A stretch of 29,052 nt of DNA, from the NCBI GenBank assembly GCA_005888755.1, contig VBBQ01000011.1, forward strand, positions 56,691 through 85,742, written 5' to 3'. The position numbers and the translations under genes are program-made. The DNA comes from Candidatus Bathyarchaeota archaeon. GTDB lineage: Archaea > Thermoproteota > Bathyarchaeia > 40CM-2-53-6. The notes beneath the pieces are model-generated. The model saw only the letters and a list, made by a program, of their open reading frames with translations, was not told where the DNA came from and ran no database searches. Of the stretch, positions 18,898-23,923 are shown piece after piece (within the stretch, counting starts at the first letter, position 1; the number at the start of each line of letters is the position of its first letter).

Positions 18898-19449
18898 TTG
18901 TCCGCTCAGAGAACGCCCCAAGAAGAAGACCCCGTAGCGACGCTCGCAGAAGGGCTTAGCATCTGGGTTGGAAAACTGAGCGACCTTGTCAAGAAAGTCG
19001 TTGACACAGGGCCGATTCGAAATGTGGTTAACTGGGCCCGGATGTATTCTCTCTGGCCGGTCAATATCACAACAGCCTGCTGCAGTGCCGAGTTCGGCGC
19101 GGCCAGCGGGGCACGACATGACCTCGAAAGATTTGGAGTTCTACCGATAGGTTCCCTCCGACAGTCAGACCTCATTGTGATCGAAGGGACCATCACTAAG
19201 AAGATGGCGAAGCGGCTTCGGATGATCTACGACCAGATGGCATTGCCCAGATACGTAATCGCAATGGGAGACTGCGCCATGTCTGGCGGCCTATTCCATG
19301 ACTCCTACAGCATCGTGAACGGCGCGCACGAGTTCGTTCCAGTCGACGTCTACGTTCCTGGTTGTCCGCCAAGACCGGAGGCTTTGGAGCAGGCAATCAT
19401 CATGCTTCAAGAGAAGATTCGAAGGTCAAAGGTGTACGAGCAAGGATGA
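18898..19449 (+). CDS. nuoB: NADH/F420H2 dehydrogenase subunit B (NuoB/FpoB-like)
   Basis: The subunit that carries the terminal N2 4Fe-4S cluster of complex I-type enzymes. All four ligands are visible: the tandem pair Cys61-Cys62 in TTACCSAEF, Cys126 in MGDCAMSGG and Cys156 in YVPGCPPRPEA. The GTITKKMAKRLRMIYDQM segment also matches the family. The 183-residue length is normal. The start is TTG 18898, with TTGGAAG nearby as a weak ribosome-binding site. Its stop overlaps the NuoC start as ATGA. It leads a five-gene unit B-C-D-I-F; subunit A and the membrane arm are not in the window. It passes electrons to the quinone or phenazine-like acceptor at the B/D interface. Confidence 0.95.
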   Translation: MSAQRTPQEEDPVATLAEGLSIWVGKLSDLVKKVVDTGPIRNVVNWARMYSLWPVNITTACCSAEFGAASGARHDLERFGVLPIGSLRQSDLIVIEGTITKKMAKRLRMIYDQMALPRYVIAMGDCAMSGGLFHDSYSIVNGAHEFVPVDVYVPGCPPRPEALEQAIIMLQEKIRRSKVYEQG

Positions 19450-19928
19450 GCCTATCTCACGAAAGAGAAGATGATCTCGTCCAGAAACTGAAAGAAGCCT
19501 TCTCCAACGATATCAAGGAAACAAACATCATCCGCCGCGGGAGGCTCGAAGTGACAGTTGCGCCCGAAAAGATCAAAGAAGTTGCGATGTTCTTGCGGGA
19601 CAAGCTGAGCTTCGATCATCCGAACGGTGTGTCGGCGGTCGACTACAACCGAGAAAACAGGTTCGAAATAGTCTACCATATCTCATCGATGCGTACCAAG
19701 GAGATGCGGGATCTCGTTCTCGACCTGAAAGAATCGGTTCCCAGAAACGCCCCCAAAGTAGGATCTCTAGTTTCAGTCTGGTCAGGCGTTGAGAACTATG
19801 AGCGAGAAAGCTTTGAGATGTTCGGAATACAATTCGACGGCCACCCGAGACTGGAAAAGCTGTTTCTCACCGATAACTGGGACGGGCCCCCTCCCCTCCG
19901 GAAGGACATCAGATTCCCTACGGACTGA
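19446..19928 (+). CDS. nuoC: NADH/F420H2 dehydrogenase subunit C (NuoC/FpoC-like)
   Basis: The 30-kDa-type peripheral-arm subunit, 160 residues. The C-terminal hallmark is complete: SVWSGVENYERESFEMFGI, then GHPRLEKLFLTDNWDGPPPLRKD. This matches the family's 'a.w.E.e.yD.fGi.F.gHp.lr..l..d.w.g.PlrKd'. ATG 19446 overlaps the NuoB stop by four bases (ATGA) and was preferred over earlier in-frame starts inside nuoB. NuoD starts 7 bases after the stop as a separate protein, so C and D are not fused as in Escherichia coli. The subunit has no cofactor and stabilises the D-B-I part of the arm. Confidence 0.94.
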   Translation: MSLSHEREDDLVQKLKEAFSNDIKETNIIRRGRLEVTVAPEKIKEVAMFLRDKLSFDHPNGVSAVDYNRENRFEIVYHISSMRTKEMRDLVLDLKESVPRNAPKVGSLVSVWSGVENYERESFEMFGIQFDGHPRLEKLFLTDNWDGPPPLRKDIRFPTD

Positions 19929-19935
19929 GACTCCG

Positions 19936-21081
19936 ATGTCAGCACCAGCGAAACCAGTTCCCCTAACAACTGTTGAATCCACCGAGACCTCCGATTCTGG
20001 TACTCAAACGCTCACGTTGAGCGTTGGTCCACAGCATTCTGGCTCCGGACACATGCGGTTGATCGTGGAGGTAGATGGAGATATCATTGTCAACGTTGCA
20101 CCGGACCCGGGTTATGTCCATAGGGGCATCGAGAAGATTATCGAGCTTAGAAATATCATCAAGAGCATACCCGTCATCGAGAGACCCTCTATCATCGACG
20201 CTTCCAACCTCAACCATGCGTGGGTGAGATCTATCGAGGAGATTCAGGGGGTCGAGGTCCCACGAAGAGGACAGTACCTCCGAACTCTCCTGAACGAGAT
20301 GAACCGGATAATGAGCCATCTTTATTGGCTCTCCATTTACGGCGTATTTCTTGGTCACACTACGATGTTCATGTGGCCGCTCGGCGATAGAGAGCTCTTC
20401 ATCGACCTCGCAGAGAAACTGACAGGGGCTAGAATCACGTACTCGTACCTTGTTCCAGGCGGGGTCCGGCGCGACTTGCCCCCAGGGTTCGCAGAGGAGG
20501 CTGTCAAGAGAACAGAGTATTTCGAGAAACGTCTCAAAGAGTATGATCGGATATTCTTCAACAACCCACTGTTCACATCCCGGGCCAAGGGAATCGGTGT
20601 ACTGTCGAAGGAGAAGGCGATCGAGCTAGGATGCACTGGCCCGACTCTTCGAGGATCGGGTGTTGACGCTGACCTTCGGAAAGACGAACCGTACGCAGCC
20701 TACTCGGAACTAGATTTCGAAGTCTCAACCCGGCCCGATGGCGATTCCTTCAGCCGGGCGATGGTGCATATGGATGAGATGCGAGAGAGTTGTAAGATGA
20801 TCCGCCAGATTGTCAAGAAGATTCCCGCAGGACCGATCCGGAGAAAAGCTCCGATCGTCCTTCCTCGTGGTGTTGCTTATGGGAGGGTCGAGTCGGCCCG
20901 TGGCGAATGCAGCTTCTATCTAATCGGAGAGGGGGGAGACAAGCCTTACCGTGCAAGGTACATTACAGGATCATACCGGAACATGGCGGCTATACCAGCG
21001 GTTCTGCTTGGAAATCGTTTGGCGGACATGCCTACCGCATGGTGGAGCATCGATTACTGGCCGGTAGAGGCGGACAGGTAG
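19936..21081 (+). CDS. nuoD: NADH/F420H2 dehydrogenase subunit D (NuoD/FpoD-like)
   Basis: The 49-kDa-type subunit (381 residues), related to the large subunit of NiFe hydrogenases. Family segments are clear: SVGPQHSGSGHMRLIVEVDGD near the N-terminus, PGYVHRGIEKI, then MNRIMSHLYWLSIYG, the LVPGGVRRDLP loop, GCTGPTLRGSGVDADLRKDEPYAAY, and ARYITGSYRNMAAIPAVLLGNRLADMP near the C-terminus. The Cys pairs that bind Ni-Fe in hydrogenases are absent at both ends, so it is a quinone-type and not a hydrogenase subunit. ATG 19936 puts the family start directly after the NuoC stop. With NuoB it forms the acceptor-reducing site. Confidence 0.95.
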   Translation: MSAPAKPVPLTTVESTETSDSGTQTLTLSVGPQHSGSGHMRLIVEVDGDIIVNVAPDPGYVHRGIEKIIELRNIIKSIPVIERPSIIDASNLNHAWVRSIEEIQGVEVPRRGQYLRTLLNEMNRIMSHLYWLSIYGVFLGHTTMFMWPLGDRELFIDLAEKLTGARITYSYLVPGGVRRDLPPGFAEEAVKRTEYFEKRLKEYDRIFFNNPLFTSRAKGIGVLSKEKAIELGCTGPTLRGSGVDADLRKDEPYAAYSELDFEVSTRPDGDSFSRAMVHMDEMRESCKMIRQIVKKIPAGPIRRKAPIVLPRGVAYGRVESARGECSFYLIGEGGDKPYRARYITGSYRNMAAIPAVLLGNRLADMPTAWWSIDYWPVEADR

Positions 21082-21085
21082 AAAG

Positions 21086-22675
21086 TTGGCCCCGATCATC
21101 GGCAAGGCCAAGGCGGCGGTCGATATTTCGATCGCGTATCTAACAGGTATCCGTCATCTCTTTCACAGACCGTATACCCTGAGATTTCCACAACAACGAT
21201 ACGCGGTTGAAAAGGGCTACAGAGGACGGCACCTCCTCCACCTCGATCGATGCACTGGGTGTGGGATTTGCGCGTGGATCTGTCCTGAGAAATGCATCAC
21301 GATCGTACCGCGGGGCCAGAGATGGTATCCACAGTACTTCTATGGCCGCTGCTGCTTCTGCCACTTTTGCGTAACCCCTGATACACTTGTTACGACGAAT
21401 CCTTCTGTATCACCCATAAGCCGAATATTGCCAGGCGATCGAGTCTTAACGCATACCGGGCACTATCGTCGAGTGCGTAAGGTCCTGACAAGAAACTACT
21501 CGGGAAGACTATACAACATCAAACCATTGGGAGCGCCCTTCCCGCTCAAAATGACGCAAGACCATCCTCTACTGGCATCTCCGAGAGACATTGTCAAGAA
21601 GGGAAGGCTCGAGAAGAAACCGCGCCCCCCTGTCTGGAAGACGCCCTTCGAATTGAAACGGGGTGACTACTTGACGATGCCTATCGCAAAGGAGGTCCGG
21701 GACACCGACGTTTACGAACAGGAGGTTGTAGTGGGTCAGCCCGGTACCAGAAAACCTCTTGAAAGCAAACTGATTCTGAACACCGAGCATAGTCTGTTTA
21801 GGCTAATCGGATACTATCTTGCAGAAGGCTATGTTGTAAGGAGAACTGTTGGTTTCGCCTTCGGCGAGCACGAAAGAGAATACATCGCCGACTCCGCCCG
21901 ACTCCTCGAGAAATATTTTGGCCGCGAAACCAAGAGGTTTACATTGCACAATTCGACCCACGTACTTCTCCATTCTGTAGTCGCCCTTCAATTCTTCGAG
22001 ACTTTTGGCCGAGGGGCGGAGAACAAGAAGCTTCCCGATTGGGCCATGTTTGCACCGACCCAGAAGCAGGCAGAGCTCATACGCGGAGCATGGAGAGGCG
22101 ACGGGTACTTCCACAGGCCGACTAAGGGTAACAGGTCAACGTTCTTCGAATACACGACGATTTCTAAGACCCTCGCCTTCCAGTTGCAACAACTCCTCTT
22201 CCGCGCAGGAATTGTTGGCCAGATCTCACTTGCCACCCATGCAAACAAGAAACCAAACTATGTAGTGACAGTTCGAGGCCGTTTTGTTTCAACAATGGCA
22301 GATCTGATGCAGGTCAAGTTTGAAGACAAGAGGGTCAAAACGTTCTCTCGTTTTGAAATGGACGCAAATTACGTTTACGCGCCGATTGAGGAAATATCGT
22401 CCTTTGAGGTTCATGATCAGCCCGTTGTGAACCTTTCAGTCGAAGGTGATGAGTCTTACGTGGCTGGAAACGTGACAGCACACAATTGCACAGATTATTG
22501 TCCAGAGTTTGCGCTGGAGGAGACGGTGGAGTATGATATTGCGGAGTATACTCGTGATCGGCTTGTGTGGAGTCCGGAGAGACTTTCCAAGCCGCCGGTA
22601 AAGAAGGACGACAAGTATGTTTTCAGCGTTGACACCATAGGGGGCGCGTCGCAGGTTCCCCAGAAGGAGGAATAG
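21086..22675 (+). CDS. nuoI: NADH/F420H2 dehydrogenase subunit I (NuoI/FpoI-like) interrupted in frame by an intein
   Basis: The precursor is 529 residues. Residues 1-94 and 468-529 form a two-cluster ferredoxin subunit of 156 residues after splicing, the normal NuoI size. The first 4Fe-4S motif is CTGCGICAWICP (Cys56, 59, 62, 66). The second is split: GRCCFCHF (Cys89, 92) lies before the intein, and CTDYCP follows it, restoring CxxCxxCxxxCP only after splicing. Splicing is therefore required for a working subunit. The start is TTG 21086, five bases after the NuoD stop. The next gene starts 4 bases after this stop. In the complex NuoI relays electrons from the FpoF-like input subunit to NuoB. 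Confidence 0.95.
   Translation: MAPIIGKAKAAVDISIAYLTGIRHLFHRPYTLRFPQQRYAVEKGYRGRHLLHLDRCTGCGICAWICPEKCITIVPRGQRWYPQYFYGRCCFCHFCVTPDTLVTTNPSVSPISRILPGDRVLTHTGHYRRVRKVLTRNYSGRLYNIKPLGAPFPLKMTQDHPLLASPRDIVKKGRLEKKPRPPVWKTPFELKRGDYLTMPIAKEVRDTDVYEQEVVVGQPGTRKPLESKLILNTEHSLFRLIGYYLAEGYVVRRTVGFAFGEHEREYIADSARLLEKYFGRETKRFTLHNSTHVLLHSVVALQFFETFGRGAENKKLPDWAMFAPTQKQAELIRGAWRGDGYFHRPTKGNRSTFFEYTTISKTLAFQLQQLLFRAGIVGQISLATHANKKPNYVVTVRGRFVSTMADLMQVKFEDKRVKTFSRFEMDANYVYAPIEEISSFEVHDQPVVNLSVEGDESYVAGNVTAHNCTDYCPEFALEETVEYDIAEYTRDRLVWSPERLSKPPVKKDDKYVFSVDTIGGASQVPQKEE
21368..22486 (+). other. Intein (373 residues) with LAGLIDADG homing endonuclease, in NuoI
   Basis: The intein runs from Cys95 to Asn467 of the precursor. 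Splicing motifs are all present: N-terminal CVTPDTLVTT (block A), TQDH at 157-160 with its block-B His, LSVEGDESYVAGNVTAHN at the C-terminus (blocks F and G), penultimate His466, terminal Asn467, and Cys468 as the +1 nucleophile. The central part has two dodecapeptide motifs of the LAGLIDADG type: LIGYYLAEG (240-248) with acidic Glu247, and LIRGAWRGDG (331-340) with Asp339. Both the splicing and nuclease domains look intact, so the element may be active. The insertion sits directly before an iron-sulfur ligand cysteine. Confidence 0.95.
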
Positions 22676-22678
22676 ACA

Positions 22679-23923
22679 TTGTCAGGGCAAACCGTGCCGA
22701 AACCCGCAACAACGGTAGCCGTTCCTCAGACTGTGCCGTTAAAGTCGACCGTTGAGGGTGAGGGCTGGAAAGCGCGTCCGATAAAGCTCAAGATCTTCGG
22801 CAACCTCATCCAGGAAGTTGTGAACAAGAATCTCTGCATGTATTGCGGAGCCTGCATTGCCTCGTGCCCGATCGACATTCTGTTTCACAGCGAAAAGGAG
22901 GAACCGGTCATGCGGGGCACTTGTGCTGCCTGCCAGGTCTGCTACTACAGCTGCCCTAGAATCGAACTGCCCGTCGCGGAGATAGAGCAACAGGTATTCG
23001 GGAGAGCGAGAACTGCCGAGGAGGCAATTCTCGGGATCCATGTCGGAGCGTACTCTGTCAAGTCGAAAGATCCGGACGTGGTCAAGCGAGCGCAGGATGG
23101 TGGGGCAGTGACTTCTCTATTGTTGTACGCGTTGGACCGGAAGATCATAGACTACGCTGTGAACTCTGGCCTCACCTCGGGAAAGCCTTGGCGGCCTGAG
23201 CCTCAGATCGCGCGGACAAAGGAGGACTTGTTGAACCACGCCGGATCTAGATACACGCCAGGAGGGCAGGTGGGCGGACTCGCAGAAGTAGCCATTCCTA
23301 ACCGATCAGTTGTCAACTTCCAGGAAGAACGTATCGCTCTCGTTGGCTTGCCTTGTGAGCTTCAGGGAAGCTGGCGGATGGGCACTCACTGGATAGCCGC
23401 GCCGAAGCTCGCGAGAAATCTCGTTTTCACGATCGGTCTCTTTTGTTCGAAAGTGTTTGATTATCAGAAGATGATGGTCGACTATGTCCAAGGCAAAAGA
23501 GGAATAAACCTCAACAACGTTACCAAGGTCAACATAAAGAGAAACAGGCTGCTCGTCTACACGGGCGACAAGCTCGCAATCGACGAGCCCGTCGAAGCCC
23601 TTGCAGGTGCGGCACGTGAAGAATGCAACGTATGCGTTGACTACTCGGCTGAATTGGCTGACATTGCAGTTGGTGCGATAGGATCCTCTCCTGGTTGGAG
23701 CACTGTGATTACGAGAAGTCCGAGGGGAGACGAGATACTGAGGGGCGCGGTGGAATCAGGATACTTGGACATGAGGCCGCTGGATCCCGTTGGTAAAGGG
23801 ATAAAGTTCCTTGAGAAATTGTGTGAGAAAAAACGGCTGCGTGATCCATCTGCCTATCTGAGGCATGAGACTGCTTCTCCAAAGCCGGAGCCAACTCTGG
23901 TACCGCTTGAGATTCCACAATAG
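22679..23923 (+). CDS. fpoF: F420H2 dehydrogenase input subunit (FpoF/FrhB-like)
   Basis: A 414-residue iron-sulfur flavoprotein that oxidises coenzyme F420H2. Two N-terminal 4Fe-4S motifs are present: CMYCGACIASCP (Cys53-63) and CAACQVCYYSCP (Cys82-92). The FrhB/FpoF core follows: RAQDGGAVTSLLLYAL, then RYTPGGQVGGLAE, the ALVGLPCELQG loop, GLFCSKVFDY, and the C-terminal ECNVCVDYSAELADIAVGAIGS. The first 35 residues are a Pro/Thr-rich extension. The start is TTG 22679 with a strong GGAGG at 22666-22670. Its position after NuoBCDI, with no NuoEFG, marks the complex as an F420H2:acceptor oxidoreductase; in Methanosarcina the fpoF gene lies apart from the other fpo genes. Confidence 0.93.
   Translation: MSGQTVPKPATTVAVPQTVPLKSTVEGEGWKARPIKLKIFGNLIQEVVNKNLCMYCGACIASCPIDILFHSEKEEPVMRGTCAACQVCYYSCPRIELPVAEIEQQVFGRARTAEEAILGIHVGAYSVKSKDPDVVKRAQDGGAVTSLLLYALDRKIIDYAVNSGLTSGKPWRPEPQIARTKEDLLNHAGSRYTPGGQVGGLAEVAIPNRSVVNFQEERIALVGLPCELQGSWRMGTHWIAAPKLARNLVFTIGLFCSKVFDYQKMMVDYVQGKRGINLNNVTKVNIKRNRLLVYTGDKLAIDEPVEALAGAAREECNVCVDYSAELADIAVGAIGSSPGWSTVITRSPRGDEILRGAVESGYLDMRPLDPVGKGIKFLEKLCEKKRLRDPSAYLRHETASPKPEPTLVPLEIPQ

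Follow-up and report, generated by a model that had tools for sequence, protein, structure and literature searches.

A mobile, probably splicing class 1 intein interrupts NuoI at an iron-sulfur ligand cysteine in a Bathyarchaeota soil lineage

In the window analysed here (the whole stretch of 29,052 nucleotides, from a Candidatus Bathyarchaeota genome of a soil lineage), a NuoI/FpoI-like gene is interrupted in frame, directly before the third ligand cysteine of its second 4Fe-4S motif. We conclude with high confidence that the insert is a mobile and probably splicing class 1 LAGLIDADG intein, that it has spread horizontally among related Candidatus Bathyarchaeota MAGs, and that the gene it interrupts is the lineage's sole NuoI. 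The features of the region are as follows.

18898..19449, plus strand: NuoB (NF005012, 2.5e-61)
19362..19928, plus strand: NuoC/FpoC (NF040611, 5.6e-35); the true start is probably further in
19936..21081, plus strand: NuoD/FpoD (NF004739, 1e-124)
21086..22675, plus strand: precursor gene of a NuoI/FpoI-like protein (529 aa plus stop; start codon TTG)
21086..21367, plus strand: N-extein (residues 1-94), which holds the first 4Fe-4S motif and C89-C90-x-C92 of the second
21350..21361, plus strand: Cys89, Cys90, Phe91 and Cys92, N-extein positions -6, -5, -4 and -3
21368..22486, plus strand: class 1 intein, 373 aa, beginning with Cys1 and ending His-Asn
21554..21565, plus strand: splicing block B, Thr63-Gln-Asp-His66 (TxxH), where T63 and H66 do not vary among 23 inteins
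21773..22333, plus strand: homing endonuclease domain of the LAGLIDADG type, spanning about residues 136-322 (LAGLIDADG_3; I-DmoI-like fold)
21803..21832, plus strand: first LAGLIDADG motif, LIGYYLAEGY, with Glu153 as its acidic residue
22076..22108, plus strand: second LAGLIDADG motif, LIRGAWRGDGY, with Asp245 as its acidic residue (Asn in the G017 allele)
22481..22489, plus strand: C-terminal splice junction, His372-Asn373 then Cys(+1), the third ligand cysteine of motif 2
22487..22672, plus strand: C-extein (CTDYCPEFAL...), holding the fourth cysteine of motif 2
22679..23923, plus strand: F420-reducing hydrogenase beta/FpoF-like subunit (NF006807, 4e-65; NF040616, 2.7e-34)

The open reading frame at 21086-22675 (plus strand) has no internal stop, and its extein residues (1-94 and 468-529) match NuoI in profile searches (TIGR01971, 1.9e-21; NF004541, 3.7e-22). 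The host protein carries two CxxCxxCxxxCP motifs, the first of them (C56xxC59xxC62xxxC66P) in the N-extein, and its gene lies in a Nuo/Fpo cluster of the order NuoB-NuoC-NuoD-NuoI-FpoF/FrhB-like; the membrane arm (NuoH and four antiporter-like subunits) is grouped on a different contig. Since the genome (2.01 Mb, about 95% complete) has no other clear NuoI, a working complex requires removal of the intein, and with the membrane arm present an intein that did not splice would be costly.

The boundaries proposed in the sequence-only reading (21368-22486, 373 residues) were right to the base: Cys1 is precursor residue 95 (TGC at 21368), the last intein residue (Asn467) ends at 22486, and Cys468 follows; the insert begins CVTPDT and finishes VTAHN before the next Cys. 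The catalytic residues that it named (Cys1, TxxH, His-Asn and the +1 Cys at 468) are in place and invariant or nearly so across alleles; in an alignment of 23 inteins Cys1, Thr63, His66 and Asn373 never vary and His372 hardly does. Taking the insert out restores a conserved host protein that reads RCCFCHF-CTDYCPEFAL, the same as the intein-free alleles of G006, G007, G009, G012 and G002, with a predicted ligated junction peptide of CHFCTDYCPEFALEE...; alignment with such empty alleles also bore out the proposed position within the second 4Fe-4S motif of NuoI. Both of the LAGLIDADG motifs that had been claimed are present, with E153 and D245 in a domain that matches LAGLIDADG_3 in Pfam (6e-13) and has an endonuclease fold of the I-DmoI kind, and matches to Hint_2 (1.1e-5) and Intein_splicing (7.7e-4) both fall under the Pfam cut-offs.

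The predicted structure of the intein (AlphaFold2, 23 aligned inteins; pLDDT 91 and pTM 0.90 over 373 residues) has the HINT fold. Its best solved matches are both whole inteins with endonucleases, the TliVMA intein (VIA-align Z 32.4 over 326 residues, 3.4 A) followed by PI-PkoII (Z 31.7). The splicing part by itself resembles mini-inteins (Z about 18), and residues 136-322 resemble I-DmoI (Z about 17). An AlphaFold2 model of the whole precursor (pLDDT 47) was too poor for distance measurement and was set aside.

From these features we infer the splicing and endonuclease activities and the order of splicing relative to cluster assembly. The intein would be translated as part of NuoI and would then excise itself by way of a Cys1 thioester, transfer to Cys+1 and cyclisation of Asn373, rejoining CHF-CTDYCP into a product equal to intein-free NuoI; its endonuclease, active now or recently, would cut empty alleles, and homing and recombination would carry the element from one relative to another. 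Of the eight ligand cysteines, 468 and 472 sit beyond the intein, and by the established dicluster ferredoxin pattern these two serve different clusters; both clusters should therefore stay incomplete until splicing has taken place. Inteins are known to favour the most conserved positions, where the target DNA stays available and imprecise loss is punished (PMC2814812), and the location in NuoI agrees with this.

A survey of 61 genomes (our own included) places the intein at exactly the same NuoI site in 13 of the 18 genomes of the genus and, outside the genus but within the family, in one of three (G018, of another genus). Ten alleles are complete, every one of them 373 residues long. Contig ends interrupt the intein in G001, G004 and G010 (contigs G001:C136, G004:C58 and G010:C84), perhaps reflecting occupied and empty, or differing, alleles that coexist in a population, and the G013 allele (L019, G013:C4) has a frameshift near intein residue 315 that is either a decaying copy or an assembly error. 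Among close relatives, where it had been suggested that intein-free alleles be sought, there are seven clean empty sites (G002, G006, G007, G009 and G012 in the genus; G019 and G020 in the family), which read RCCFCHFCTDYCP, or CTEYCP in G019, without a scar. Two of these have flanks nearly identical to those of intein-bearing counterparts, with 98.9% identity in the upstream flank for empty G007 against G001 and 96.9% flank identity for empty G009 against G016. Among 256 genomes of the class (where the hosts of weaker hits were mostly read) no homologous intein was seen at the NuoI site outside the family, and in 398 genomes of the phylum the listed NuoI-like matches showed the split pattern only in this genus. 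G045 and G055 have long frames that looked like NuoI with an intein but proved to be NuoI-NuoB-NuoD fusions; these fusion frames of ~590 residues (L034, L035; G045:C33, G055:C2) belong to another Bathyarchaeia genus.

The occupied and empty alleles are distributed in a way that points to horizontal movement. On a flank tree (intein removed) presence and absence changed at least five times on well-supported branches, and a single clade of intein-bearers was rejected (p-AU 6.5e-47). Intein and flank topologies showed no significant discordance (p-AU 0.068 and 0.146), so the case for mobility rests on patchiness and on dS, which we compared between the intein and its neighbours (NuoD, NuoI and the downstream gene). 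For the pair G000 (the genome of the window) and G014, intein dS was 0.91 [0.72-1.23] vs 0.19-0.27 for the neighbours, for G017-G015 it was 0.15 [0.10-0.21] vs 0.50-1.21, and for G003-G008 it was 0.01 [0-0.03] vs 0.13-0.30; the bootstrap intervals of these discordant pairs do not overlap, and the control pair G011-G016 was in agreement (0.66 vs 0.55-0.85). Patchy presence together with discordance in both directions thus indicates that the intein moves horizontally. In G016 and G009 mismatches are concentrated near the insertion site, from about -290 to +300, and the sequences are nearly identical beyond (dS 0.018 for NuoD, 0.203 for NuoI), which looks like a conversion tract, although this is suggestive only. 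As for a vector, IMG/VR yielded only distant inteins (25-37% identity), as did phages (about 25-27%), so no viral carrier was found.

The same patchiness could come from the loss of an old element whose splicing is intact and whose endonuclease is mostly “dead.” Degraded-looking copies do occur: G017 has Asn in place of Asp245 in its second LAGLIDADG motif, G013 has the frameshift, and in G014 and G015 the second motif is altered. We nevertheless consider general decay rather unlikely: most pairwise dN/dS values are about 0.1-0.2, in the splicing and endonuclease parts alike, so that both are now or were recently under selection despite the G017 substitution, and an intein dS far under that of the flanks in two pairs argues for recent arrival.

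A mobile, splicing intein might in addition be regulated. Under oxidising conditions Cys92 (Cys-3) could pair with Cys1, or a metal could bind Cys89, Cys92 and Cys1, so that NuoI would stay unspliced until conditions became reducing and assembly of the peripheral arm would follow the state of the cell. In the Pyrococcus abyssi MoaA intein, a native disulfide between Cys-3 and Cys1 controls splicing by blocking it (PMC3922620, PMC10663303), and in NuoI the arrangement Cys92-His-Phe and then Cys1 places a cysteine, by sequence position, at the spacing of that trap. Further, Cys1 is the only conserved cysteine within the intein, leaving the extein cysteines as the only regular disulfide partners, and the KorB (WCPG/C) and AmrS (GCNWL/C) inteins of the same genome (splice points marked by a slash) likewise carry a ligand at -3 or -4 ahead of Cys1. 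Against this, the three cysteines upstream simply form the usual NuoI motif, with RCCFCHF identical in intein-free alleles, and so give no sign of regulation; the patchy presence and the closely related empty alleles show that hosts can do without any such control; and the interior of an anaerobe may rarely be oxidising. The proposal is plausible by analogy with MoaA, and as an addition to the mobile, splicing intein, rather than a replacement for it, we regard it as unlikely.

The genome as a whole carries roughly 16 inteins, two of which, besides that of NuoI, interrupt proteins at cysteines established in their families as Fe-S cluster ligands, each closely preceded by another ligand.

L046:1782-3869 (G000:C32:30781-32868), plus strand: intein of KorB (2-oxoacid:ferredoxin oxidoreductase beta), splitting the CPGC motif
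L053:226-2349 (G000:C32:40225-42348), plus strand: intein of AmrS (AmmeMemoRadiSam radical-SAM enzyme), splitting CxxxCxxC

The KorB intein (WCPG/C...GN/CGDFG) ends in Gly-Asn, not His-Asn, and occurs in 2 of the 18 genus members; that of AmrS (GCNWL/C...HN/CGYC) has about seven bearers in the genus, the rest being mostly empty, and its middle part does not have the LAGLIDADG layout of the others. If the inteins of NuoI, KorB and AmrS were all redox or iron “gates” that kept their oxygen-sensitive enzymes unspliced until clusters could be built, inteins at Fe-S ligands would amount to a post-translational switch on energy metabolism. We think this quite doubtful; insertion at such ligands in three hosts may reflect site choice rather than regulation, because conserved cysteines come in such motifs. 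The nearest relatives of the NuoI intein at other sites are inteins in MetK (G042), KorB, endonuclease IV and a Hel308-like helicase (hosts other than KorB were named by eye), and a tree of the NuoI, KorB, MetK and Nfo inteins had long branches and gave no resolution of their branching order. Two other inteins were seen along the way: one in a protein that by eye is Mrp/ApbC-like, after LPPG and with +1 Thr (L040, G018:C42:71129-74310, minus strand), and one (YSFW/CVPK...VHN/CADLPPEYSS) in a protein at L049 (G000:C27:59500-63200, minus strand), with similar frames across the genus.

That a NuoI fragment was joined to a foreign intein in assembly or binning is exceedingly improbable: three MAGs (G001, G004 and G010) do have contig ends inside the intein, but ten independently assembled MAGs, one of them of another genus and several with contigs over 80 kb, share the same in-frame junctions, and four further MAGs with broken or partial inteins share the N-terminal one, so the intein described in the sequence-only reading is real.

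The novelty claimed for the NuoI site is supported as far as the papers searched reach, where no described NuoI intein and no description of inteins in Bathyarchaeota was found, and where the work linking inteins with NADH-quinone oxidoreductase concerns ribonucleotide reductase inteins. We regard the intein as an element of a known kind at a host site that is new, by which a respiratory-complex subunit, at a metal-ligand cysteine, joins the list of intein hosts. The near-identical alleles with and without the intein form a natural experiment in a single-copy energy-metabolism gene and, taken together with the KorB and AmrS inteins, make gating of Fe-S enzymes testable in several native substrates with matched intein-free controls.

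The closest solved systems, the TliVMA intein (7qsu, 7qss) and PI-PkoII (2cw7), resemble the NuoI intein in whole-length fold, in Cys1, TxxH and His-Asn, and in having the endonuclease nested in the splicing domain; they differ in host (a V-ATPase subunit and a DNA polymerase, respectively) and have only about 20% sequence identity to it. The P. abyssi MoaA intein, likened here on its published description, shares an oxygen-sensitive host, a cysteine at -3 and a Cys1 nucleophile (PMC3922620, PMC10663303), but MoaA is a radical-SAM protein rather than a respiratory subunit, and redox control is demonstrated for MoaA, where in NuoI it is a hypothesis. The intein of the tetraether lipid synthase Tes (NF045703) also has an archaeal Fe-S (radical SAM) host and is the best NCBIfam match to the NuoI intein (E 3.6e-11), although the host is another one and the match is weak and mostly to the endonuclease part. 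Within the genome itself, the KorB intein is about 32% identical and has the same layout, with a ligand cysteine at -3, Cys1 and a +1 ligand cysteine, yet it differs in its host protein, its Gly-Asn end and its rarity in the genus.
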